A stretch of 48,342 nt of DNA from Chloroflexota bacterium. GTDB lineage: Bacteria > Chloroflexota > Dehalococcoidia > DSGV01. The DNA lies in contig JAJYLG010000015.1 of the NCBI GenBank assembly GCA_021787985.1, forward strand, positions 1 to 48,342, in the 5' to 3' direction. Made by a program: the position numbers and the translations under genes. Below the pieces are notes generated by a model, which was not told the DNA's origin, did no database searches, and saw nothing but the letters and a program-made list of their open reading frames with translations. Positions 7,055 through 36,796 of this stretch are shown here, one piece after another (position 1 is the first letter of the stretch; every line of letters begins with the position of its first letter).

Positions 7055-8206
7055 CTAGCGGTACGGCATGTAATCGCGCCCGATGACCTCGCGGGCGATG
7101 ATGCCCTTCATGATCTCCGGCGTGCCATCGCCGATCTCCAGCCCGATGGCGTCGCGCAGGCGCTGCTCGAACGGGAGGTCCATGTTGTAGCCGTAGTGGC
7201 CGTGCAGCCAGATGCAGGCGTGGATGGCGTCGACCGCGACCTTCGGCCCCAGCCACTTGGCCATCGCCGCCTCCTTGGTGTGCGGCTCTCCCTGGTCCCG
7301 CTTCCACAGGCACTCGTACGCCAGCAGCCGCGCCGCCTCTACCAGTGTCAGGTGCTCGGCGAGCTGGAACGAGACCGCCTCGTGCTTCGCCAGCGGCCGG
7401 CCGAAGCTCTGCCGCTCCTTCACGTAGGCGATCGTCTCGTCCAGCGACTGCTCGGCCGCGCCCACGCAGGCCAGCGCGATCACGGCGCGGTTGTAGTCGA
7501 AGGCGCCCATCGCCTGGTAAAACCCTTTGCCTTCCGCGCCGAGCAGATGGTCCGCCGGCACGCGCACCTGGTCGAAATACAGCGAGCCGCGCTGCGTCAG
7601 TCGCTCACCGGGACTGCGGTAGACCTGTCGCGTCACCCCCGGGGCGTCCAGCGGCACGAGGAACGTGCTCACCCCGTGCGCACCCTCGCCGCCGGTGCGG
7701 GCGAAAACGGCACAGGCGTCGGCGTAGCCGGCGAAGGTGATGGAGGCCTTCTCTCCCGAGATGACGTACTCGTCGCCGTCGCGCACGGCGGTGGTAGTCA
7801 GGTTGGCCGCGTCGGACCCGGCGGCTGGCTCGGTCAGCCCGAAGGCCGCCAGCGCGCTGCCGTCGGCCAGCCGAGGGAGCCAGACCCGCTTCACCGCCTC
7901 TCGCGCGTGCTGCCCGATCAGCTCGCTGCCGATGCTGTAGAGCTGGACAAACAGCGAGTAGTTGAAGTCGCCGCGGGCCAGCTCCTCAGCGGCGATGCCC
8001 AACATCACGTAGTGCGCGTCGGCGCCCCCGTACTCCGCTGGCACCCGCAGCCCCGTGATCCCGAGCTGGGCGAGCTCGGCCACCCGCTCGCGGGGAAAGG
8101 GCTCGCCGCGGTCCCAGGTCGCGTAGTCAGGCTTCAACCGCTGCAGGGCGAACCGCCGCACCGTCTCCGCGAACAGCCGTTGCTCATCGCTCAAGGCGAA
8201 ATCCAT
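7055..8206 (-). CDS. Acyl-CoA dehydrogenase (AliB-like by context)
   Basis: This 383-residue FAD-dependent acyl-CoA dehydrogenase forms an alpha,beta double bond in an acyl-CoA and passes electrons to an electron-transfer flavoprotein. FGLTEPAAGSD is the FAD/substrate loop and RQSFGRPLAKHEAV is the dimer/FAD segment. At the usual catalytic Glu position the motif reads GDGTPEIMK, with Asp360. Asp at this position is also known in ACAD10/11-like and some cyclic-acyl dehydrogenases. The gene lies between a BadI-like hydrolase and two CoA ligases, so cyclohexanecarboxyl-CoA dehydrogenase is the most economical guess. Confidence 0.85.
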   Translation of the reverse strand: MDFALSDEQRLFAETVRRFALQRLKPDYATWDRGEPFPRERVAELAQLGITGLRVPAEYGGADAHYVMLGIAAEELARGDFNYSLFVQLYSIGSELIGQHAREAVKRVWLPRLADGSALAAFGLTEPAAGSDAANLTTTAVRDGDEYVISGEKASITFAGYADACAVFARTGGEGAHGVSTFLVPLDAPGVTRQVYRSPGERLTQRGSLYFDQVRVPADHLLGAEGKGFYQAMGAFDYNRAVIALACVGAAEQSLDETIAYVKERQSFGRPLAKHEAVSFQLAEHLTLVEAARLLAYECLWKRDQGEPHTKEAAMAKWLGPKVAVDAIHACIWLHGHYGYNMDLPFEQRLRDAIGLEIGDGTPEIMKGIIAREVIGRDYMPYR

Positions 8207-25328: not shown

Positions 25329-26225
25329 GTGCAGGGTGAAGCGGCGCTCCCAGCGGCGGCGGCGAACGGAACGCTTGCTCGAGGCGGACGGCGCACCGCC
25401 CGCCTGCTGCGCTGGGTGCGTCGGCCGCTCACGCTGGGCTCGCTGGTGGTGCTTACCATCTTCACCATTACCGCTGCCCTGGCGCCCGCCATCGCACCCT
25501 TCGGCCGCAACGAGGCCACCTCAGCCTACTTCGCGTCACCCGGACTCGCGCACGTCTTCGGCACCGACAACCTGGGCCGCGACGTGTTCTCGCGCGTGGT
25601 GTACGGCGCGCGGGTGTCGTTGGAGGTCGGCGTGCTCTCAGTGCTGATGGGCACGCTGGTGGGAGCCGTGCTCGGGACGGTAAGCGCCTACGCTGGCGGC
25701 TGGGCAGACGCCGCCTTTCGGCGGCTGGTCGACCTGATGATGTCGCTGCCGAGCCTGCTGCTCGCCCTGGTCATCGCCGCCGGCCTGGGCGCCAGCCTCT
25801 TCAACGTGACGCTGGCGATCTCCGCGGCGATCGTGCCGGTAGCCGGCCGGATCGCGCGGTCGAGCACGCTGGTCGTGCGCGAGCTCCCCTACGTCGAGGC
25901 GGCCAGGACCCTGGGGGCGAACCCGGCGCGCGTGGTCACGCGCCACGTGGTCCCGAACGTCCTCGCGCCGGTCGTCGTGATCGCCAGCGTACAGTTCGGC
26001 TTCGCCATCATCTCGGAAGCGTCCCTCAGCTTCCTCGGCCTTGGCGTGCCGTTGGGAGTGCCCTCGTGGGGCAACATGCTGAGCGGCTCCACCCTGCTCT
26101 ACATGCAACGTGCGCCGTGGATGGGGCTGTTCCCCGGCCTGGCGCTCACGCTCGTCGTCATGGCGGTCAACCTGTTCGGCGACTCACTGCGCGACTTCTT
26201 CGATCCACGGCTGCGCGGACGATAG
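25329..26225 (+). CDS. dppC: DppC-type ABC transporter permease
   Basis: This 298-residue partner permease has an N-terminal cytosolic tail, a first membrane helix, FGTDNLGRDVFSRVVYGARVSL, the EAA loop YVEAARTLGANPARVVTRHVVPN and the end LFGDSLRDFFDPRLRGR. GTG 25329 is the most plausible start; ATG 25322 runs into a stop after five codons. It is 3 bases from dppB. It is paralogous to, but not a recent copy of, the remnant at 1848-2096. Confidence 0.88.
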   Translation: MQGEAALPAAAANGTLARGGRRTARLLRWVRRPLTLGSLVVLTIFTITAALAPAIAPFGRNEATSAYFASPGLAHVFGTDNLGRDVFSRVVYGARVSLEVGVLSVLMGTLVGAVLGTVSAYAGGWADAAFRRLVDLMMSLPSLLLALVIAAGLGASLFNVTLAISAAIVPVAGRIARSSTLVVRELPYVEAARTLGANPARVVTRHVVPNVLAPVVVIASVQFGFAIISEASLSFLGLGVPLGVPSWGNMLSGSTLLYMQRAPWMGLFPGLALTLVVMAVNLFGDSLRDFFDPRLRGR

Positions 26226-26272
26226 CGCGGCCGTCCACCGATTCGGAACAGAACGAAGGGGGAGAACGACCG

Positions 26273-27985
26273 ATGACTACCGAAACACGACGCGAGGCGA
26301 GGCGGCCGCACATCATCACCCGGGTGACGCGCAGACGACTGCTCGTGACCGGAGGGCAGGCGGCCGCCGGCTTCGGGGCGGCGAGCCTACTGGCCGCCTG
26401 TGGCAGCAAGAAGTCGAGTCCTGGCCAGACCAGCACGCCCACGGCGACAGCCGCGGGTACTCCCAAGCGTGGCGGCTCGGTGACCGTCCGAATTCAGTCT
26501 GACCCGCCGAACTTTAGCGTGTTCACGGCCTCGTTCTTGACCGCGGGATTCGCGGATCTGGCGTATAACAAGCTGCTGGCCCAGAAGGTGGGGCCGGACG
26601 TGACCCCAGACCAGGTGGTGCTCGAGCCCGACCTGGCCGCCGCGATGCCGGAGCAGCCGGACAGCACGACCTACATCTTCAAGCTGCGACCGGGCGTCAA
26701 GTGGCAGAACGTTCCGCCCGCCAACGGCGCGGCGCTCACCGCCCAGGACGTGGTCGACGCGGTCAATGCCTACCGGACGAACACGGCCTCGGCGTTTCGC
26801 TCGGACTACGGCGCGATCGACAGCGTCGCCGCCACGGACGCCCAGACGATCAAGATCGTGACCAAGGAGCCCTACGCCCCGCTGCTCGCGATCTCGGCAG
26901 GGCAGTACGGTCTCCGTGTGTTCCCGGTCAAGCTGCTCGAGAACGACGCCATCAAGAAGCAGGCCGTCGGGACCGGGCCATTCATCCTCGACAGCTACCA
27001 GCAGGGCAGCCGCGCGTCATACAAGCGTAACCCGGACTACTTCCGCAGCGACCGCCCGTACCTGGACGCCGTGACGCTGGCCATCATCCCCCAGGAGGCG
27101 TCGGCGATTTCCGCCTTCGAGACCGGCCAGGCGGACATCATCGGCTCGATCCCCTGCGTGAGCGCGGATGAGGTCAAGCGCGCCAAGTCGGACGCGAAGT
27201 ACGGCGCAACCTACGACGTCTTCCCCGGCGGCTACATCGCTCTCAACACCACCAAGGCACCGTTCAGCGACGCACGGGTGCGCCGGGCGGTGTCGATGGC
27301 GTTCAACCGCAAGGCGGAAAGCGACGCGCTCGAGTGCGGCCAGGGCAAACCGGACCAGCTCATCCCTACCGGCGCCTGGAAGCTAGCTTTGCGCCCCGAC
27401 CAGATGGGCGACGCGAGCAAGTACTGGGCGTACAACCCGGACGAGGCGAAGAAGCTGCTGGCGGAAGCGGGTTTCGCGAACGGGTTCGAGGTGTCGGCCG
27501 TCTACACGCCGCAATATGGGCAGGCATATCAGGACTCGCTGGCCCGCGCCGCGAGCGACTTCAAGGCGGTCGGCATCACCGTCAAGCCGACGGCCGTGCA
27601 ATACAACCAGTGGATCAGCAGTCTCTACCGTCCGCCTTTCAAGTTCGATGGCATGCTCTGGGGCCCCTCTCGCTACTACTCGGACCCGGATCCGTACGTG
27701 TGGTACTGGCTGCACCCGGACCCGAAGCAGGGCATCAGCAACCAGAGCCGTGTCAACGATCCGCAGCTCGTGCCGTTGCTCACGAAGCAGCGGCAGACGC
27801 TCGACTCCCAGCAGCGCAACGCCGTGCTCGAACAGATCGAGAAGATCGTGGCGGACCAGCAATACTATGTCGGCCGCACGACGGGCGTCGCCTACACGTT
27901 CTGGCAGCCCTGGATCCAGGGCTACGGCCTGTATCTCGGCTACGATTTCCCACAACTGGAGCGGATCTGGGATGCCAGACGGTAG
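26273..27985 (+). CDS. ABC transporter substrate-binding lipoprotein (SBP_bac_5)
   Basis: This 570-residue family 5 solute-binding protein starts at ATG 26273, behind AAGGGGGAGA. The N-terminus has an RRR pair (residues 20-22), a hydrophobic stretch and a lipobox LLAAC with Cys43, so it may be a Tat-exported lipoprotein anchored outside the membrane. RGGSVTVRIQSDPPNFSVF, YIFKLRPGVKWQN and GTGPFILDSYQQGSRASYKRNPDYF are family-typical. It lies after dppBC. Its last 14 bases overlap the following CoA-transferase gene, an unusually tight link between uptake and metabolism. No ATPase gene accompanies the importer. Confidence 0.92.
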   Translation: MTTETRREARRPHIITRVTRRRLLVTGGQAAAGFGAASLLAACGSKKSSPGQTSTPTATAAGTPKRGGSVTVRIQSDPPNFSVFTASFLTAGFADLAYNKLLAQKVGPDVTPDQVVLEPDLAAAMPEQPDSTTYIFKLRPGVKWQNVPPANGAALTAQDVVDAVNAYRTNTASAFRSDYGAIDSVAATDAQTIKIVTKEPYAPLLAISAGQYGLRVFPVKLLENDAIKKQAVGTGPFILDSYQQGSRASYKRNPDYFRSDRPYLDAVTLAIIPQEASAISAFETGQADIIGSIPCVSADEVKRAKSDAKYGATYDVFPGGYIALNTTKAPFSDARVRRAVSMAFNRKAESDALECGQGKPDQLIPTGAWKLALRPDQMGDASKYWAYNPDEAKKLLAEAGFANGFEVSAVYTPQYGQAYQDSLARAASDFKAVGITVKPTAVQYNQWISSLYRPPFKFDGMLWGPSRYYSDPDPYVWYWLHPDPKQGISNQSRVNDPQLVPLLTKQRQTLDSQQRNAVLEQIEKIVADQQYYVGRTTGVAYTFWQPWIQGYGLYLGYDFPQLERIWDARR

Positions 27986-29183
27986 CGCGTTGCAGGGCGT
28001 CCGAGTCGTCGAGCTGGTCGAGGGGCTGGCGGGAGCGTATTGCGGGAAGCTGCTCGCCGGCCTGGGCGCCGACGTGCTGAAGGTCGAGCCACCGAGCGGC
28101 GACTCGCTCAGGCGCGCCGGCCCGTTTCCCGAGGACCACCCGAACCCGGAGGCGAGTGGGCTCTTCCTCCACCTCAACCCGGCCAAGCGTAGCGTGACGC
28201 TGGCCATCGAGACGGAGACGGGGCGCCGGCTCCTGGGCCGCCTGCTCGACACCGCGGACGTCCTGGTTCACGACCTCGCGCCGGGTCGTGCCCGGGCGAT
28301 CGGCCTGGACGACGCAAGCCTGCGCAACGAACGGCCCTCATTGGTCGCCGCCGCGGTCACCTTCTTCGGCTCGACGGGACCCTACGCGGACTTCGCGGGA
28401 ACGGAGATCGTCGCCCAAGCGCTCAGCGGCTACATGTCGCTGACCGGTGACCCGGACCGCGAGCCGCTCAAGCCGTACGGCTACTTGGCCGAGTACCAGG
28501 CCGGGCTGCATGCCGCCGTCGCCGTCATGGCCGCGGTGCTCGCTCGTGACGCGACCGATGAGGGCGACCTGGCCGACGTCTCCGTGACCGAGGCGGCGTG
28601 CTTTGCGCTCGGCGGCCCGCCCCAGCTCGCATGGTGGTTCGACCGCACGCTCAAGCGCAACGGCACGCGGCTCATCGGCGTGGGCGGGCGCCATCCGTAC
28701 CCTTCCACGCTGCGTCCCTGCGCCGACGGCTGGGTGCACGCCCACTCGAACAACCGCAACCCGGAGCTGCTGGCCGCGCTCGTCGGCGACCAATGGCTGG
28801 CAAGCCCCGAGGTGCTCGATGCGATGACCGACCGCGCCGACGAGATCGACGCCGTGGTCGATCGCTGGCTCGCGGACAAGACGAAGTGGCAGGCGGTCGC
28901 CGCGGCTCAGGAGATGCGGCTGCCGTTCACGGAGGTGCTGACGCCGGCCGAGCTGCTGGAGGACCGGGAGGGCCACCTCCGTTCGCGCGGGGAGCTGGTC
29001 GAGGTCGAGCACCCCGTCGCCGGAACGGTCACGCAGCTCGGACCGCCCGTTCACCTGGGGGCCGGGGCGTGGGTCTCGGACCGTGCGCCGCTGCTCGGCG
29101 AGCACACCGCCGACGTGCTCTGCGGGACGCTCGGACTCACGCACGATGACCTGCTGCGGCTGCGTCAGGCCGGCGTGGTGTGA
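27972..29183 (+). CDS. CaiB/BaiF CoA-transferase with Glu at the catalytic position
   Basis: This 403-residue family III CoA-transferase starts at ATG 27972, inside the end of the solute-binding-protein gene. It has GVRVVELVEGLAGAYCGKLLAGLGAD, NPAKRSVTLAI and FFGSTGPYADF. At the catalytic Asp position it reads YLAEYQAGLHAA, with Glu174. The change may reduce or alter activity. It is followed at once by a paralogue with a normal Asp, the same arrangement as the pair at 13249-15764. Confidence 0.85.
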   Translation: MPDGSALQGVRVVELVEGLAGAYCGKLLAGLGADVLKVEPPSGDSLRRAGPFPEDHPNPEASGLFLHLNPAKRSVTLAIETETGRRLLGRLLDTADVLVHDLAPGRARAIGLDDASLRNERPSLVAAAVTFFGSTGPYADFAGTEIVAQALSGYMSLTGDPDREPLKPYGYLAEYQAGLHAAVAVMAAVLARDATDEGDLADVSVTEAACFALGGPPQLAWWFDRTLKRNGTRLIGVGGRHPYPSTLRPCADGWVHAHSNNRNPELLAALVGDQWLASPEVLDAMTDRADEIDAVVDRWLADKTKWQAVAAAQEMRLPFTEVLTPAELLEDREGHLRSRGELVEVEHPVAGTVTQLGPPVHLGAGAWVSDRAPLLGEHTADVLCGTLGLTHDDLLRLRQAGVV

Positions 29184-29197
29184 GAGGGGACGGGGCG

Positions 29198-30460
29198 ATG
29201 CGCAAACCGCTCGAGGGGGTCCGAGTCGTGGACCTGACGCATGTCGTGGCGGGGCCGGTGGCCAGCTTCACGCTCGGTGACCTCGGGGCCGAGGTCATCA
29301 AGGTGGAGCCACCCTACCGCGCCGCGCCCGCCGTGGCCACGCCGCCGGTCGCGGGCGCGCCCGACCGGCCGCATAACCGTGTGCCGCTCTTCAACGAGCT
29401 GAACCGCAGCAAGCTCGGCATCGCCCTCGACCTGAGCAGCGGGCCAGGTCGCGACCTCTTGCTCCGGCTGGTCGCCGTCAGTGACGTCGTGATGGAGAAC
29501 TTCTCGTCGCGAGTCCTCGGCAACCTACGGCTGGAGTACGAGGACCTGCGCGCCGCTCGGCCGGACATCATCCTCGTCTCCATGCCGGCTTTCGGCCGCT
29601 CGGGGCCATACCGCGACCGCACCGCGCACGGCCCGGGGATCGACGCGATGAGCGGCCTATCGCACCTCACCGGCTACGGCGACGGGCGCCCCGGTAAGCC
29701 GGGCAACTTCTTCTGCGACTACAACGCCGGCCTGCTCGCCGCGCTGGCCACCATGGCGGCCGTGCGCCACCGCCGCCGCACGGGCGAGGGCCAGCATGTC
29801 GAGTGCGCCATGCTCGAGGGCGAGCTGCAGATCCTCGGCGACGCACTGATGGACGTGACGATGAACGGGCGTGTTCGCCAGCCGCTCGGCAACCGCCATC
29901 CGTGGATGGCGCCGCACGGCGTCTACCCCTGCGCCGGGGAGGACCGCTGGGTGGCGCTCGCCTGTCGCTCGGACGCCGAGTTCGCCGCGCTCTGTGACGT
30001 GATCGAGCGACCCGAGCTGGCACACGACCCGCGCTACGCCGCGCTGCCGGCGCGCTACCGCAACCAGGATGCGCTGGACGCGCTGATTGGCGCCTGGACA
30101 CGCCACCGCGACGAGTACGAGGCGATGGACGCGCTGCAGCGGGCGGGCGTTGCGGCCGGCGCAGTGCTCGACGTCGGCCAGTTGCACGCGGACCCGCAGC
30201 ACGTGGCGCGCCGCTTTTTCGTGCCGGTCGCGCATCCAGAGACTGGGCCGGCGCCGCTGCCACGCGTGGCGTTTCGCTTCGCCCGGATGTCGGCCGAGCC
30301 GGAACGGCCTGCGCCATGCTTCGCCCAGCACACCGACTACGTCCTGCGCGAGCTGCTGGGAATGGCGGATGCGGAGGTGCGCGAGCTGGAACAGTCGGGC
30401 GCCGTCGCGCGCGACCCGCGCGGTAGCCAGGAGGAAGGAAGGGAGGTGGCCCGCAAGTGA
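29198..30460 (+). CDS. CaiB/BaiF CoA-transferase with catalytic Asp
   Basis: This 420-residue family III CoA-transferase has GVRVVDLTHVVAGPVASFTLGDLGAEVIKVE, NRSKLGIALDL, FGRSGPYRD and FFCDYNAGLL with Asp174 at the catalytic site. ATG 29198 follows GAGGGGACG; GTG 29180, which overlaps the previous stop, is a possible alternative. It probably forms the active half of a heteromer with the preceding gene product. Its stop overlaps the thiolase-like gene start. Confidence 0.87.
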   Translation: MRKPLEGVRVVDLTHVVAGPVASFTLGDLGAEVIKVEPPYRAAPAVATPPVAGAPDRPHNRVPLFNELNRSKLGIALDLSSGPGRDLLLRLVAVSDVVMENFSSRVLGNLRLEYEDLRAARPDIILVSMPAFGRSGPYRDRTAHGPGIDAMSGLSHLTGYGDGRPGKPGNFFCDYNAGLLAALATMAAVRHRRRTGEGQHVECAMLEGELQILGDALMDVTMNGRVRQPLGNRHPWMAPHGVYPCAGEDRWVALACRSDAEFAALCDVIERPELAHDPRYAALPARYRNQDALDALIGAWTRHRDEYEAMDALQRAGVAAGAVLDVGQLHADPQHVARRFFVPVAHPETGPAPLPRVAFRFARMSAEPERPAPCFAQHTDYVLRELLGMADAEVRELEQSGAVARDPRGSQEEGREVARK

Positions 30461-31596
30461 ACCCACGAGGGCGCTACGCCGTCGTCGGGGTCGGCAACAC
30501 GGCCTACGGGAAGCTGGCCGGCCGGTCGGCGATGTCGCTGTCGGTCGAGGCCGTCCGCAACGCGCTGGCCGACGCCGGCCTGCGACCGGCCGACGTGGAC
30601 GCAGTGCTGACCAAGGCGCCGACATCGAACTTCACCATGTTATGGAGCGCGCAGGTCGCCCAGGCGGTCGGCATTGTCCCGCAGGTGACCGCGACGCTTG
30701 ACCAGGCCGGCGCGTCCAACATCGGGCTGGTCGGCTACGCGATGTGGTGCATCGAGACCGGGCAGTGCCACACGGCGGTGATCGTCTATGGCGACAACCC
30801 GGCCACCGGCTCGCGCGCCACCTACGCGCGACCGCGCGGCGAGGGGGCGGCGTACGGGATGTTCGGCGTGCCGCCGTGGTACGCGCTGATCGCGCAGCGG
30901 CACATGCACGAGTACGGCACCACGAGCGAGCAGCTCGGCGCCGTGGCCGTGGCCTGTCGCAAGCACGCGGCGATGAACCCCGGCGCGCAGTTCCAGTCAC
31001 CGATCACGCTCGAGGACCACCACGCATCGCGCTTCGTCGCGGAACCGCTCCGGCTGCTGGACTGCTGCCCCATCTCCGACGGCGCCGCGGCCATCGTCGT
31101 GACATCGGCCGAGCGGGCATCGGGCATGCGCAAGCCGCCGGTGTACGTGCTTGGCATCGGCCAGGGTCATCCCGCCTGGGACGTCCCGTACCGCTCGACG
31201 CTGACCACCAGCGGCGCAGCGACCTCGGGTCCGATGGCATTCCGGATGGCGGGCATCACTCCCGCCGATGTCGACGTGGCGCAGCTCTACGACTGCTTCA
31301 CCATCGTCCCTATCGTCACGCTCGAGGACTACGGCTTCTGCGCCAAGGGCGAGGGCGGCGCGTTCGTCGAGCAGGGGCGAATCGCGCTCGGTGGAGCGCT
31401 GCCGCTGAACACGTCCGGCGGTCTGTTGGGCGAGACGGGAATGCCCGGCATGCAGCTCATCGTCGAAGGGGTGCGCCAGATGCGGGGAGAGTGCGGCGGG
31501 CGCCAGGTCCCGGACGCGCGCATCTGTGTGGTGAGCGGTCAGGGCGGCGTGATGACGACCCACGCGACGCTGGTGCTCGGAAAGGAGGTGCCGTGA
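30457..31596 (+). CDS. Thiolase-like protein (SCP-x/Ltp type), no nucleophilic Cys
   Basis: This 379-residue thiolase-fold protein starts with GTG 30457, overlapping the previous stop. It has YAVVGVGNTAYGKLAGR at the N-terminus. The nucleophile loop reads TATLDQAGASNIGL, so Cys is missing, as in the left-arm paralogue. QLYDCFTIVPIVTLEDYG, LPLNTSGGLLGE and VVSGQGGVMTTH are the other active-site loops; unlike the left-arm copy it has no Tyr in the last loop. Together with the next DUF35 gene it may form a second aldolase- or thiolase-like complex with a different substrate. Confidence 0.87.
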   Translation: MNPRGRYAVVGVGNTAYGKLAGRSAMSLSVEAVRNALADAGLRPADVDAVLTKAPTSNFTMLWSAQVAQAVGIVPQVTATLDQAGASNIGLVGYAMWCIETGQCHTAVIVYGDNPATGSRATYARPRGEGAAYGMFGVPPWYALIAQRHMHEYGTTSEQLGAVAVACRKHAAMNPGAQFQSPITLEDHHASRFVAEPLRLLDCCPISDGAAAIVVTSAERASGMRKPPVYVLGIGQGHPAWDVPYRSTLTTSGAATSGPMAFRMAGITPADVDVAQLYDCFTIVPIVTLEDYGFCAKGEGGAFVEQGRIALGGALPLNTSGGLLGETGMPGMQLIVEGVRQMRGECGGRQVPDARICVVSGQGGVMTTHATLVLGKEVP

Positions 31597-32021
31597 TGGC
31601 AACGGACGTGACCGAGCGGCCAGCCCCGGATGTGGACGAAGAGAACGCCGGCTACTGGGATTCGCTCCGCCGGCACGAGCTGGCGCTGCAGCGTTGCGCC
31701 GACTGCGGCCGCTTCTGGTCACCGGCGGGCAGCTTCTGCCGGTGGTGCTTGTCTGACCGCTGGAGCTGGGAGCGCGTCTCCGGCCGCGGCACGCTCTACG
31801 CCTTCACCGTCGTGCACCAGGTCTACCATCCGGCCTTCCGCGAGGCGGCACCCTACCCGGCGGCGGTCGTGGAGCTCGAGGAAGGACCGCGGTTGCTGGC
31901 GACGGTCGACTGCGCACCCCGTGAGCTGCGCGTGGGCATGGCGCTCGAGGTCGGCTACCGCGACCTGCCCGAAGGCTTCACCTTGCTGGCGTTTCGGCCT
32001 GTCACTGGAGGCACGCGATGA
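31596..32021 (+). CDS. DUF35 zinc-ribbon/OB-fold protein
   Basis: This 141-residue protein has a zinc ribbon (CADCGRF, then FCRWC) and an OB fold (GRGTLYAFTVVHQVYHPAF, APYPAAVVEL). It should bind the acyl-CoA substrate of the thiolase-like partner. ATG 31596 shares one base with the partner's stop and is preceded by GGAGG. Its own stop overlaps the ATG of the small GIY-YIG-like gene. Confidence 0.9.
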   Translation: MATDVTERPAPDVDEENAGYWDSLRRHELALQRCADCGRFWSPAGSFCRWCLSDRWSWERVSGRGTLYAFTVVHQVYHPAFREAAPYPAAVVELEEGPRLLATVDCAPRELRVGMALEVGYRDLPEGFTLLAFRPVTGGTR

Positions 32022-32410
32022 GCGGCATCACCAAACCGTGGACAGCGTTCGACCCGGGTGGCGCGAAGCGCATCCCGGGGACGGTCGGCGTCTACGAGAT
32101 CGGAGACGAGGCCGGGAAAACGCTCTACATCGGCTGCGCGGGCGGTCGCGAGCCGTTCGGGCTGCGCGGCAAGATCACCGGCCACTTTACCGGCCCGCAA
32201 GCCGCGGATGGTTCGCCCGCACGGCCGCGCGCCTATCGGTACGAGGTCAACCTGCAGTACCTGACGCGCTGGATCGAGCTGCTCACCCAGCACCTGGAAG
32301 CGCAAGGCGGTCTGCCCCAGTGGAACGAGCGGGCGCGCTCGGAGCTGCCGCGGCTGGGTCGCTTCCATCGAGCGGCCGGTGTGCCGGCGCCCTCGGGAGG
32401 GAGCCCGTGA
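32018..32410 (+). CDS. Small GIY-YIG-like protein of unknown function
   Basis: This 130-residue protein has PGTVGVYEIGDEAGKTLYIG (residues 20-39), which reads as a GIY-YIG core with GVY at residues 24-26 and YIG at 37-39. Arg50 (LRGK) sits where the family has its catalytic arginine. Glu87 or Glu104 and Asn103 are candidates for the metal site. The length fits a stand-alone minimal domain. It is bound into the operon by a four-base overlap with the DUF35 gene. A nuclease inside an acyl-CoA operon makes little sense, so it may be a repurposed fold that serves the enzyme complex. I do not know a named family for it. Confidence 0.65.
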   Translation: MSGITKPWTAFDPGGAKRIPGTVGVYEIGDEAGKTLYIGCAGGREPFGLRGKITGHFTGPQAADGSPARPRAYRYEVNLQYLTRWIELLTQHLEAQGGLPQWNERARSELPRLGRFHRAAGVPAPSGGSP

Positions 32411-32477
32411 CCCGCCGGGTTCCATCGGCCGCTCCAGCGCCCCCCATGACAATCGAGAGCACGCCGCGGAGGCACGC

Positions 32478-33632
32478 ATGGACTTCCTAATGACCGATCA
32501 GCAGCGGCTGATCATCGAGACGATCCGCCGGTTCGTCCAGGACGAGATTGTTCCGCTCGAAGCACACCTCGATCCAGACGCCTTCGAGCTCCCGGAGGAG
32601 GAGTTCGACCGCCTGGTCGGCATGGTCAAAGAGATGGGGTTCTGGAACCTCAGCGTGCCGACTGAGTTCGGCGGTCCCGGGCTCGACCTGGTGACGCTCA
32701 CCCTCGCCGCCGAGGAGATGAGCCAGCACCGCGCGGGGCTCTACGCGCCTTGCTATCACGTCTTCGGCCACGGTGGGCTGGCCCAGCTCTACGAGGCGAA
32801 CGAAGACCAGAGGCAGCGCTACCTCTTGCCGCTGATCCGCGGGGAGAAGCACGCCTTCTTCGCGCTGACGGAGCCTTCCGGCGGGTCGGATCCTGCGCGT
32901 GCCATCAGGACCACCGCCGTGCGCGACGGCGACCACTGGGTATTGAACGGGACCAAAGTCTTCATCTCGGGCGCCGACCAGGCGGACTTCGGCCTCGTCT
33001 TCGCACGCTCCGACCCCGCACAGGGTCGCGCCGGCATCACCTGCTTCATCGTCGACTCAGACACGCCCGGGTTCCGGGTGCGCCGGATCATCCACGTACT
33101 TCGCAGTACCGAGTACCCGTGCGAGATCGAGTTCGACGAGTGCCGCGTTCCGGAGTGCAACGTGCTCGGCGAGGTGAACAAGGGGTTCACCATCGCGAAC
33201 GATCGCCTGACGCGCAACCGCATCCCGTACGCGGCCGGCTCCATCGGCGTGGCCGTCGCCGCGCAGCGGATGGCGATTCGCTGGGCCAAACAGCGCGAAA
33301 CCTTCGGCGACCTGCTCGCCCACCGCCAGGCGATCCAGTGGATGATTGTCGACAACGAAATCGACCTCCGCACCTCGCGCTGGCTCACGCTCGAAGCGGC
33401 GTCGAAGGCGGACTGCGGCGAGCCGTTCCGTTTCGAGACGGCAATGGCCAAGGTGGTGGCCACGGAAGCGGCGGGCCGCGTGGTCGACCGGGCCATCCAG
33501 GTGCACGGCGGGCTGGGCGTCACCAAGGACCTGCCGCTCGAACGCTGGTACCGCGAGCTGCGCATCCGCCGCATCGGTGAGGGGCCGTCGGAGGTGCAAC
33601 GCATCATCATGGCCCGCGACTTGCTCTACTAG
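32478..33632 (+). CDS. Acyl-CoA dehydrogenase with standard catalytic Glu
   Basis: This 384-residue acyl-CoA dehydrogenase has ALTEPSGGSDPA, RETFGDLLAHRQAIQWM and RIGEGPSEVQRIIMARDLLY, with Glu368 in the normal base position. ATG 32478 is preceded by GGAGG; the longer open frame upstream is not needed. It follows the GIY-YIG-like gene by 67 bases with no obvious promoter and precedes a crotonase, consistent with the first two steps of a beta-oxidation round. Confidence 0.9.
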   Translation: MDFLMTDQQRLIIETIRRFVQDEIVPLEAHLDPDAFELPEEEFDRLVGMVKEMGFWNLSVPTEFGGPGLDLVTLTLAAEEMSQHRAGLYAPCYHVFGHGGLAQLYEANEDQRQRYLLPLIRGEKHAFFALTEPSGGSDPARAIRTTAVRDGDHWVLNGTKVFISGADQADFGLVFARSDPAQGRAGITCFIVDSDTPGFRVRRIIHVLRSTEYPCEIEFDECRVPECNVLGEVNKGFTIANDRLTRNRIPYAAGSIGVAVAAQRMAIRWAKQRETFGDLLAHRQAIQWMIVDNEIDLRTSRWLTLEAASKADCGEPFRFETAMAKVVATEAAGRVVDRAIQVHGGLGVTKDLPLERWYRELRIRRIGEGPSEVQRIIMARDLLY

Positions 33633-33645
33633 AAGGAGGTTCTCC

Positions 33646-34422
33646 ATGGCGCTGCTGTTCGAGGTCCGCGACCATATCGCCTACCTGACCATCAACCGGC
33701 CCGAGGTGATGAACGCCCTCGACCCGGAGACCTACCAGGAGCTCTCCAACGCCTGGATCGAGGTGCGGGACAACCCGGAGATCTGGGTCGCGATCATCAC
33801 CGGCGCCGGCGACCGCGCGTTCACCGCCGGCGCCGACCTGAGGAAGACGATCCCGCGCCAGCCCGAGGTCTGGGAGTTCTGGCTCACCCAGCGGGAGCAG
33901 ATCCTGAACCGCGGGCTCGAGGTGTGGAAACCGGTGATCGCGGCGGTGAACGGCTACTGCCTCGGCGGGGGGATGACGCTGCTGTTCGCCACCGACATCC
34001 GCGTGGCCGCCGAGCACGCGACGTTCGGCTTGTCCGAGGTGAAACGGGCCATCCTGCCGGGAAACGGCGGCACACAGCGGGCCGTGCGCAATCTTCCCTA
34101 TCCCATTGCCATGGAGCTGCTCCTCACCGGCGACGCGCTGACCGCGCAGCAGGCCCACCAGTACGGGCTGGTGAACCGCGTGGTGCCGCTGGTCGAGCTG
34201 ATGCCGGCCGCCGAGGAGTACGCACGCCGCGTCTGCAGCAACGGGCCGCTGGCCGTGCGCGCCATCAAGGAGCTGGCCGTCCGCAGCCAGTACATGCACA
34301 TCGCCGACGGTCTGCGCATGGAGCAGGCGATGCAGCGCATGCTGATGGACCTGACCGAGGACGCCCGCGAGGGCCCGCGCGCCTTCGCCGAGAAGCGTCC
34401 AGCGCGGTACCAGGGAAGATAG
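33646..34422 (+). CDS. Enoyl-CoA hydratase/isomerase family protein (single catalytic Glu)
   Basis: This 258-residue crotonase has GDRAFTAGADLRK and GYCLGGGMTLLFATD, where the first hydratase Glu is replaced by Thr. The second is retained in GLSEVKRAILPGNGGTQR. Such one-Glu crotonases include isomerases and some hydratases, so the exact reaction is open. AAGGAGG lies 6 bases before ATG 33646. It follows the dehydrogenase gene directly. Confidence 0.87.
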   Translation: MALLFEVRDHIAYLTINRPEVMNALDPETYQELSNAWIEVRDNPEIWVAIITGAGDRAFTAGADLRKTIPRQPEVWEFWLTQREQILNRGLEVWKPVIAAVNGYCLGGGMTLLFATDIRVAAEHATFGLSEVKRAILPGNGGTQRAVRNLPYPIAMELLLTGDALTAQQAHQYGLVNRVVPLVELMPAAEEYARRVCSNGPLAVRAIKELAVRSQYMHIADGLRMEQAMQRMLMDLTEDAREGPRAFAEKRPARYQGR

Positions 34423-34436
34423 GAGGGGCCCGGCCA

Positions 34437-35201
34437 GTGGGCAGGCTCGACGGCAGGGTAGCGGTCGTCACAGGCGCCAGCCGCGGCATCGGCCGCACGA
34501 TCGCCGAGACGCTCGCACGCGAGGGCGCGGCGGTCGTCATCGCCGCGCGTACCGAGCAGCAACGGGGCGCGCGGCTGCCCGGGACGATCTATGAGGTAGC
34601 GGAGGGCATCTGCGCGGTCGGCGGGCGCGCGCTCGCCGTGCCGTGCAACGTGGCGGACGAGGACTCCATCCAGGCGATGGCGGACCGCGTGCACCGCGAG
34701 CTCGGACCGGTGGACCTGGTCGTGAACAACGCGGCCGTGCAGGTGCCCGGCTCGCTGCGCGAGGTGCAGGTGCGCCACTGGGACCTGGCCTTTCGCGTGA
34801 ACGTGCGCGGGCCGCTGCTGGTGGGTCGCGCCTTCCTCGATGACATGCTCGCGAAGCGCTTCGGCCACGTCATCAACGTCAGCTCGATCGCCGCGACGCG
34901 CGACCGCCCGGGTAACGTGCACTACAGCGTGACCAAGGCGGCGCTCGAGCGGCTGAGCACCGGCTGGGCGGCGGAGCTGCGCGAGGCGAACGTCGCGGTA
35001 GTCGCGCTCAAGCCGGCCGGCGCGGTGGACACGCCCGGCCTGCGCTTCGGCGGGCGTTACGACCACCCGGAGCTGCTACCCGGCCCGGAGCAGATGGCCG
35101 CGGCGACGGTCGTCCTGGCGGCGCAGGAGCCACTCGCTTGCACCGGCCTGGTGGTCAGCGATGAGGAGGTTCTGGCGCGGTTCACCCACCGGGCGGGCTA
35201 A
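34437..35201 (+). CDS. HSDL2-like SDR oxidoreductase
   Basis: This 254-residue SDR has TGASRGIG and IAARTEQQ (NADP-type), then LPGTIYEVAEGICAVGGRAL, a block resembling the N-terminal domain of HSDL2-like proteins. NNAAV, SSIAA and YSVTK complete the active site. The start is GTG 34437, with AGGAGG upstream. It is the last gene of the right arm and could supply the dehydrogenase step after the dehydrogenase and crotonase. The 228 bases beyond it, to the tRNA gene, hold nothing I recognise. Confidence 0.85.
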   Translation: MGRLDGRVAVVTGASRGIGRTIAETLAREGAAVVIAARTEQQRGARLPGTIYEVAEGICAVGGRALAVPCNVADEDSIQAMADRVHRELGPVDLVVNNAAVQVPGSLREVQVRHWDLAFRVNVRGPLLVGRAFLDDMLAKRFGHVINVSSIAATRDRPGNVHYSVTKAALERLSTGWAAELREANVAVVALKPAGAVDTPGLRFGGRYDHPELLPGPEQMAAATVVLAAQEPLACTGLVVSDEEVLARFTHRAG

Positions 35202-35692: not shown

Positions 35693-36796
35693 CTACAGCG
35701 GACCACCCAGGCGGTCGGCCCAGGGCCAGTCCAGCGCCGCCCGGCAGCCCAGCTCGGCCGCGCGGCGCAGCGCGAACGGATCGGTCATGCCGCTGACGTA
35801 GTCGGCAGCGCGGCGCTCGGGCGGATCTTCGGGTCGCACGTAATCGCTCGCGATCGCTTCCGGGTTGCCGGCGTAGTACTCGAACAGGAACGCGACCACC
35901 CGCTGCGCCTGCACCACTTCGCGGCGCGTCCCCTCGTGCAGGTACACGCGCTCGAAGAGGAACTCGCGCAGGCGGTTGGCGAAGGCGTGCATCTCGGGCG
36001 ACAAGCGGACCGCTGGTGCGCCGGAGGCGGGCGCGCCGGTGCAGTCCCACGACGCGAGCACGGCATCGGTCACCAGCGTGTCCACGCGCTCGCGGTGCGT
36101 GGCGCCGAGCGCGGCGGTGATGTCGGCGGGGATGTCCTCCAGGCGGAGCAGTCCCGCGCGGATCGCGTCGAGGATGTCGTGGTTGATGTAGGCGAGCGCA
36201 TCGGCCAGGCGAACGGCCTGACCCTCGAGCGTCGCGGGGATGCCCCACGCCTCGGCGAAGATGTCGCCGCGAACCTTGCTGCTGCACGCGATGCCGTTGC
36301 GCGTTTCCCAGGTGAGGTTGAGCCCACGACCGCCTTCCTCCAGGAGCTCCACCACACGCACGCCCTGGTAGTTGTGCCGCCACTCCTCGCCCAGCGCCTC
36401 GCTGAGCGCCTCTTCGCCCGCGTGGCCAAAGGGCGCGTGGCCGATGTCGTGCGCCAGGGCGATCGCCTCCGCGAGGTCCTCGTTCAGGTTGAGGGCACGG
36501 GCAATGGTGCGGGCGATCTGCATGACCTGCAGGGTATGGGTGAGCCGGGTGACGAAGTGGTCGCCGGACGGCGCGATGAAGACCTGGGTCTTGTGCTTGA
36601 GCCGCCGAAAGGACTTGCAGTGGATGATGCGGTCGCGATCGCGCTGGAACTCGGTCCGCAGCGGCGAGGGAGGCTCCGGCCGGTCGCGCCCGCGAGAGCG
36701 GCTGCCGCGCGCCGCATAAGGCGAGAGCGCCGCCTCGCGTTCCTCGAGGCGGCGCCGCACTGACTCGATCCGCTCGTGTCGCTCGTGCTCCGTCAT
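35693..36796 (-). CDS. dgt: dGTPase-like HD-domain triphosphohydrolase
   Basis: This 367-residue protein of the dNTP triphosphohydrolase type 2 subfamily removes triphosphate from dNTPs. It has RTEFQRDRDRIIHCKSFRRLKHKTQVF, then the HD metal site: His87 (RLTHTLQV), H116-D117 (AHDIGHAPFGH) and a distal Asp in YINHDILDA. Length is normal for the family. It is the last gene of the minus-strand housekeeping block, 39 bases after ppsA. Substrate preference among dNTPs cannot be told. Confidence 0.92.
   Translation of the reverse strand: MTEHERHERIESVRRRLEEREAALSPYAARGSRSRGRDRPEPPSPLRTEFQRDRDRIIHCKSFRRLKHKTQVFIAPSGDHFVTRLTHTLQVMQIARTIARALNLNEDLAEAIALAHDIGHAPFGHAGEEALSEALGEEWRHNYQGVRVVELLEEGGRGLNLTWETRNGIACSSKVRGDIFAEAWGIPATLEGQAVRLADALAYINHDILDAIRAGLLRLEDIPADITAALGATHRERVDTLVTDAVLASWDCTGAPASGAPAVRLSPEMHAFANRLREFLFERVYLHEGTRREVVQAQRVVAFLFEYYAGNPEAIASDYVRPEDPPERRAADYVSGMTDPFALRRAAELGCRAALDWPWADRLGGPL

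Follow-up and report, generated by a model that had tools for sequence, protein, structure and literature searches.

The small gene at 32018-32410 of the window, by which we mean the whole stretch of 48,342 nucleotides that was analysed, encodes a 130-residue protein that we consider, with a probability of about 0.6, to be a protein of GIY-YIG fold that lacks a conserved nuclease site and is dedicated, as an accessory protein, to a single clade of acyl-CoA dehydrogenases (ACADs), represented here by the product of 32478-33632. It belongs to Pfam family DUF7508, its predicted fold is that of GIY-YIG domains, and its gene is tightly and reciprocally paired with this ACAD clade. The pairing indicates that enzymes of this clade almost always require the small protein or benefit from it; the small protein presumably binds the ACAD physically and was probably recruited from a role on DNA to assist the enzyme.

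The gene lies in an operon of plus-strand genes, separated by overlaps or short gaps, that extends from 27972 to 35201; the source genome comprises 3.5 Mb in 189 contigs. The operon is composed as follows.

27972-29183, plus strand: family III CoA-transferase CaiB1, starting with Met (NCBIfam CoA-transferase models)
29180-30460, plus strand: family III CoA-transferase CaiB2 (Pfam CoA_transf_3; PDB 9fn0_B, E 3.9e-55)
30457-31596, plus strand: thiolase-like protein (Pfam Thiolase_C_1, E 4.5e-57; PDB matches including BbsB, 7pxp)
31596-32021, plus strand: DUF35/ChsH2-type zinc-ribbon OB-fold protein (Pfam OB_ChsH2_C and zf-ChsH2)
32018-32410, plus strand: DUF7508 protein of predicted GIY-YIG fold, 130 aa (Pfam PF24348, AlphaFold2 model, fold comparison)
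32478-33632, plus strand: ACAD, the conserved partner gene, 384 aa (Pfam Acyl-CoA_dh_1/M/N)
33646-34422, plus strand: enoyl-CoA hydratase (ECH) (Pfam ECH_1, E 4.1e-58)
34407-35201, plus strand: SDR-family oxidoreductase, start uncertain (NCBIfam SDR models)

Taken together, these genes look like a bbs-type beta-oxidation module, with a two-subunit CoA-transferase, ACAD, hydratase, SDR, and thiolase plus DUF35. The benzylsuccinate pathway of anaerobic toluene degradation uses BbsEF, BbsG, BbsH, BbsCD, and BbsAB, and two CaiB genes, ACAD, ECH, SDR, and thiolase plus DUF35 also adjoin in the window, whereas the account of that pathway, in the part of the source at hand, names no GIY-YIG protein (PMC10818641). 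CaiB2 matches the benzylsuccinate CoA-transferase subunit 9fn0_B and the thiolase-like protein matches BbsB 7pxp, with other structures scoring better in both cases, and the equivalog scores are 31.1 bits versus a required 250 for BbsA and 139.8 versus 750 for BbsB. The catalytic Glu region of the window's ACAD, located by alignment to PDB ACADs, reads GEGPSEVQR. An ABC transporter permease and a substrate-binding protein, read from the sequence at 25329-27985, end in an overlap with the first CoA-transferase gene and may provide uptake for the operon.

The open reading frame at 32018-32410, with its ATG at 32018 and its TGA stop at 32410, is a real gene, and its GC content by codon position resembles that of the adjoining genes. 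As the earlier note had claimed, it overlaps the DUF35 gene by four bases (ATGA), its product contains GVYEIGD (24-30), TLYIGC (35-40), and R50, and there is no DNA-processing neighbour within the operon; outside the operon, the minus-strand ORF at 35693-36796 is presumably a dNTPase-like HD protein, judging from its sequence. The protein matches DUF7508 (PF24348) with 35.1 bits versus a cut-off of 26 (E 1.5e-8). A profile search of genome contigs (alignment A2) located relatives with 30 to 50% identity at 79 loci, a search of these contigs with the 130-residue sequence alone having returned 308 pattern stretches and zero relatives; phmmer against the PDB with that same single sequence gave chance-level matches only, and PHROGs gave no match. 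DUF7508 is matched at E <= 0.1 by every one of the 84 sequences in alignment A3, 11 of which weakly match the Pfam GIY-YIG model; the DUF7508 model also matches apparent UvrC N-domains (judged by length and motif) in many genomes. As to a mobile or phage origin, there was no plasmid match for a homologue of the protein (L117) and no phage match for the window protein itself.

An AlphaFold2 model built from alignment A3 (m078de2b87483; mean pLDDT 82.8, pTM 0.77) has the strand-strand-helix-strand-helix order expected for GIY-YIG (beta-beta-alpha-beta-alpha), the residues from about 111 onward being the least confident part of this isolated model. The top six Foldseek matches are all GIY-YIG domains, none of them at E < 0.001. 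VIA-align Z scores were 9.9 for UvrC 1yd6, 9.8 for the N-domain of the plant glutaredoxin GRXS16 (2lwf), and 8.1 for UvrC 1ycz, and 6.7, 6.6, and 5.9 for Eco29kI, EndoII, and I-TevI; hhalign against 16 apparent UvrC N-domains gave a probability of 96.6%. The GIY and YIG boxes correspond to GVY at 24-26 and YIG at 37-39 of the window protein. Fold and profile homology both place the protein in the GIY-YIG superfamily, and the fold proposed in the earlier note is supported by this prediction and comparison. The UvrC N-domain (1yd6, 1ycz) shares fold and profile with the window protein, but the window family is without a conserved catalytic Arg, and the window protein itself has a 5-residue insert (AGGR..FG, in the hhalign alignment) and neither further UvrC domains nor repair neighbours. 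The N-domain of GRXS16 is the best Foldseek match, its Z score covers model residues 1-109, and its profile match spans positions 15-100, including a P..GN motif, at an E value of only 0.1; it is likewise the partner of a redox domain, but as a glutaredoxin fusion in plants and with no ACAD.

GIY-YIG domains are generally regarded as nucleases. In the UvrC profile alignment, the GIY Tyr falls on Y26, the YIG Tyr on Y37, and the catalytic Arg of the first helix on position 52, where the window protein has Lys; the Arg50 that had been proposed as the catalytic residue is thus present, but it is K52 that occupies the catalytic position. Residue counts were made over 78 ACAD-linked rows, in which two genomes are counted twice. 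Tyr is found at position 26 in 64 rows and at position 37 in 48, while position 52 is Arg in 17, Glu in 47, and Ala in 9. Because the catalytic Arg position is variable, the 130-residue protein is not classed as a nuclease. The counts at positions 52 and 37 likewise make the nucleic-acid or nucleotide-ester hydrolase, which the earlier note had given as its alternative, less likely. Tyr, Tyr, Arg, and His/Tyr stand together in 17 of the 78 rows, and these rows, which keep Tyr, Tyr, Arg, and His, count against a loss of the nuclease site. The residues invariant in all rows are A41, G43, F47, G48, R50, R74, E76, Y81, and P100. In the profile alignment made here, the N-domain of GRXS16 carries Phe in place of the YIG Tyr and lacks the catalytic Arg; a further difference from the window protein is the endonuclease activity that a review reports for it, and because this domain reportedly cuts DNA without those residues, the absence of catalytic residues does not imply the absence of activity (PMC5890173).

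That report on a fold relative also speaks for an active nucleotide-type phosphodiesterase working beside the ACAD, with FAD, RNA, or the 3'-phospho-ADP moiety of CoA as possible substrates, as do Y26, Y37, H56, E87, and N103, all carried by the window protein. Position 87 is Glu in 77 of the 78 rows and position 103 is Asn in 60, the register of E87 against the metal-binding Glu that UvrC has on the last helix being left unfixed by hhalign and that of the C-terminal half being uncertain. We nevertheless regard such an enzyme as unlikely, as the complete set of Tyr, Tyr, Arg, His/Tyr, Glu, and Asn occurs in only 2 of the 78 rows, and the prevailing residue at the catalytic Arg position is Glu.

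The 79 loci are distributed over Chloroflexota, Proteobacteria (alpha, gamma, and delta), Actinobacteria, and Acidobacteria, among at least five phyla. In 77 of them, the next downstream gene on the same strand is an ACAD 62 to 73% identical to that of the window, and in the remaining two (L067, L097) the contig stops 28 and 77 nt past the small gene. The median distance from the stop of the small gene to the start of the ACAD match is 12 nt, with values from -16 to 276. Directly upstream (within 450 nt), 45 loci have an ECH, 17 a CaiB, and a single one DUF35, and 16 have no member of the gene families of the window. When 147 ORFs called around 24 selected loci of the 79 were tallied by Pfam, several of the calls being rough and the window's genes not serving as queries, ACAD was counted 19 times, ECH 15 times, and CoA-transferase III 14 times, with every other family at 3 or fewer. 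Of the two observations by which the earlier note would have been refuted, a predicted fold other than GIY-YIG and homologues usually next to DNA-repair or mobile genes, neither was made. In one genome (G945), a single GIY-YIG gene precedes two ACADs in tandem, both from the linked clade (L254, 2898-5640).

The frequent upstream ECH, together with two copies of the small gene that lie beside an ECH without an ACAD, could be taken to mean that the small protein acts on ECH and ACAD together or chiefly on the hydratase, the ACAD pairing being a by-product of operon structure. This is quite improbable, however: CaiB rather than ECH is directly upstream in the 17 loci noted above, the upstream ECHs are only about 28 to 35% identical to the window's ECH, and the highly similar ACAD is present at every locus whose contig reaches it.

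The pairing also holds when it is viewed from the side of the enzyme. Among the 386 genomes searched in the window's class, 56 ACADs were found at E <= 1e-120. Those at least 60% identical to the window's have the small gene on the same strand and contig in 46 of 48 cases, 45 with the gene within 1 kb upstream and 1 with it elsewhere on the contig (G349); of those below 60%, 1 of 8 has it (Fisher p 1.2e-6 for the split, from related genomes that are not independent). Two clade members have no small gene nearby: one is the ACAD of G353, where the small gene adjoins an ECH on a contig other than that of the ACAD, and the other is an additional ACAD copy in G621. Conversely, 49 of the 57 places with the GIY-YIG gene in this class are beside an ACAD or in its operon and 8 are not, the 49 including two truncated or frameshifted ACADs (G053, G595). 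Of 289 alphaproteobacterial genomes, 15 have the ACAD (E <= 1e-110), and exactly these 15 have the GIY-YIG protein (E <= 1e-9); the genes are adjacent in 14, and in the other (G859) they are split across contig ends that keep the usual order ECH-GIY / ACAD-CaiB. The source genome has 28 ACAD-family matches, one of which has the small gene beside it. Four ACAD-family matches (32478-33632 and those at 7085, 15929, and 22187) are on the 48-kb window contig alone.

A maximum-likelihood tree of the ACADs groups 80 linked rows with the 2 exceptions in a single starred clade (97/96), whose sister clade (98/90) consists of seven unlinked ACADs, the outgroup branches being long; the linked/unlinked label needs 3 changes on this tree versus 16 in shuffles. 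Linked and unlinked ACADs are separated at 31 positions, mostly at 67-130 and 203-215, from which no conclusion is drawn because any two sister clades differ.

The partner that the earlier note had put forward was the thiolase/DUF35 complex, of which the small protein would be a subunit. That the window's small gene shares four bases with DUF35 is in keeping with this, and the DUF35-small gene order recurs in L052, L166, and L251, but thiolase-DUF35 is directly upstream of the small gene in only one of the 79 loci. Moreover, L210 and L247 are operons of CaiB, ECH, ACAD, thiolase, and DUF35 that have no GIY-YIG gene, and their ACAD is of the sister clade; the small gene therefore follows the ACAD clade and not the thiolase. 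We rejected the thiolase/DUF35 partnership on these grounds, as an extremely improbable one. What stands of that proposal is the repurposing of a GIY-YIG fold within an acyl-CoA operon, as indicated by the conserved gene context, with the co-travelling ACAD in place of the thiolase/DUF35 complex as the partner.

A degenerate nuclease domain might instead bind the mRNA or the promoter of the operon that encodes it and, as a regulator, tune ACAD expression. The GIY-YIG fold, the small size, and the position in the operon would suit this role, which we hold to be doubtful, since the gene stays with the ACAD clade across many phyla, whatever the operon layout and the upstream genes; in L169 it is found at the other end of the operon, and in G353 on a different contig. 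Varied layouts around a constant ACAD are better explained by a protein partner than by a cis-acting regulator.

As an accessory protein of the ACAD, the small protein would bind enzymes of the linked clade directly and may help them to assemble or to retain FAD, or may gate them, or dock them for substrate or electron transfer. Candidate contact sites are the invariant AGGR..FGLR, R74, E76, and Y81, together with E87 and the conserved C-terminal LGRLS tail, which has little order in the isolated model and of which 74 of the 78 rows carry some version (loose pattern). A model of a read-through chain of GIY-YIG domain, intergenic stretch, and ACAD from L110 (pTM 0.67) gave no docking signal, the GIY-YIG domain having a pLDDT of about 95 and the tail block one of 66, and binding is therefore still something that we infer. 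The exceptions in G353 and G621, the ECH-adjacent copies in L042 and G353, and the ACAD-less relatives L170-L173 count against the partner reading. A shortage of ETF as the reason for an alternative acceptor is unsupported; the source genome has four ETF-family matches.

ACADs are commonly viewed as homo-oligomers requiring nothing beyond FAD and an electron acceptor. If the ACAD-partner reading is true, an unsuspected accessory protein is added to beta-oxidation, one-to-one with an ACAD clade over at least five phyla, a domain of unknown function (DUF7508) gains a testable role, and the name "GIY-YIG nuclease" on such genes can mislead. The small protein and the ACAD form a small, closely spaced pair that is easily co-expressed. 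No paper naming DUF7508 was found among the open-licence PMC papers searched, and no GIY-YIG protein tied to an ACAD, to CaiB/CoA-transferase, or to beta-oxidation, and nothing relevant on pseudoenzymes, came up among the papers listed; likewise, the available part of a 2006 survey of the GIY-YIG superfamily makes no mention of a dehydrogenase, glutaredoxin, or oxidoreductase (PMC1564403). As far as these searches go, the parts are of known kinds, and the ACAD pairing and the role are new; in Pfam, DUF7508 is a family without an assigned function, to which the ACAD pairing is an addition made here.

The wider DUF7508 family reaches beyond this enzyme. A second copy in the source genome (L042 3305-3577, contig C112) lies directly upstream of another ECH, with no ACAD, and is degenerate, having lost the YIG tyrosine and having no matching C-terminal part. 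Divergent members (L170-L173) have no ACAD beside them, and some free-standing ones of this kind lack any acyl-CoA neighbour. In other Dehalococcoidia, the domain forms the C terminus of NuoG/GltD-like Fe-S/FAD oxidoreductases of about 840 residues, which carry NuoG-like ferredoxin and Pyr_redox domains; these fusions speak for the partner reading.

L161 842-3340: DUF7508-oxidoreductase fusion
L162 577-3117: DUF7508-oxidoreductase fusion
L163 406-2910: DUF7508-oxidoreductase fusion
L164 1-2034: DUF7508-oxidoreductase fusion

Tentatively, DUF7508 might be a non-nuclease branch of GIY-YIG that now serves flavin and redox enzymes at large as a helper module, in one form a free-standing and near-obligate partner of an ACAD clade, in another a C-terminal domain of Fe-S/FAD oxidoreductases, and related to the domain fused in GRXS16; we consider this generalization possible but less likely than not. 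A divergent GIY-like ORF is also found upstream of two thiolase-like genes in G353 (L255, from about 4979, contig C143).
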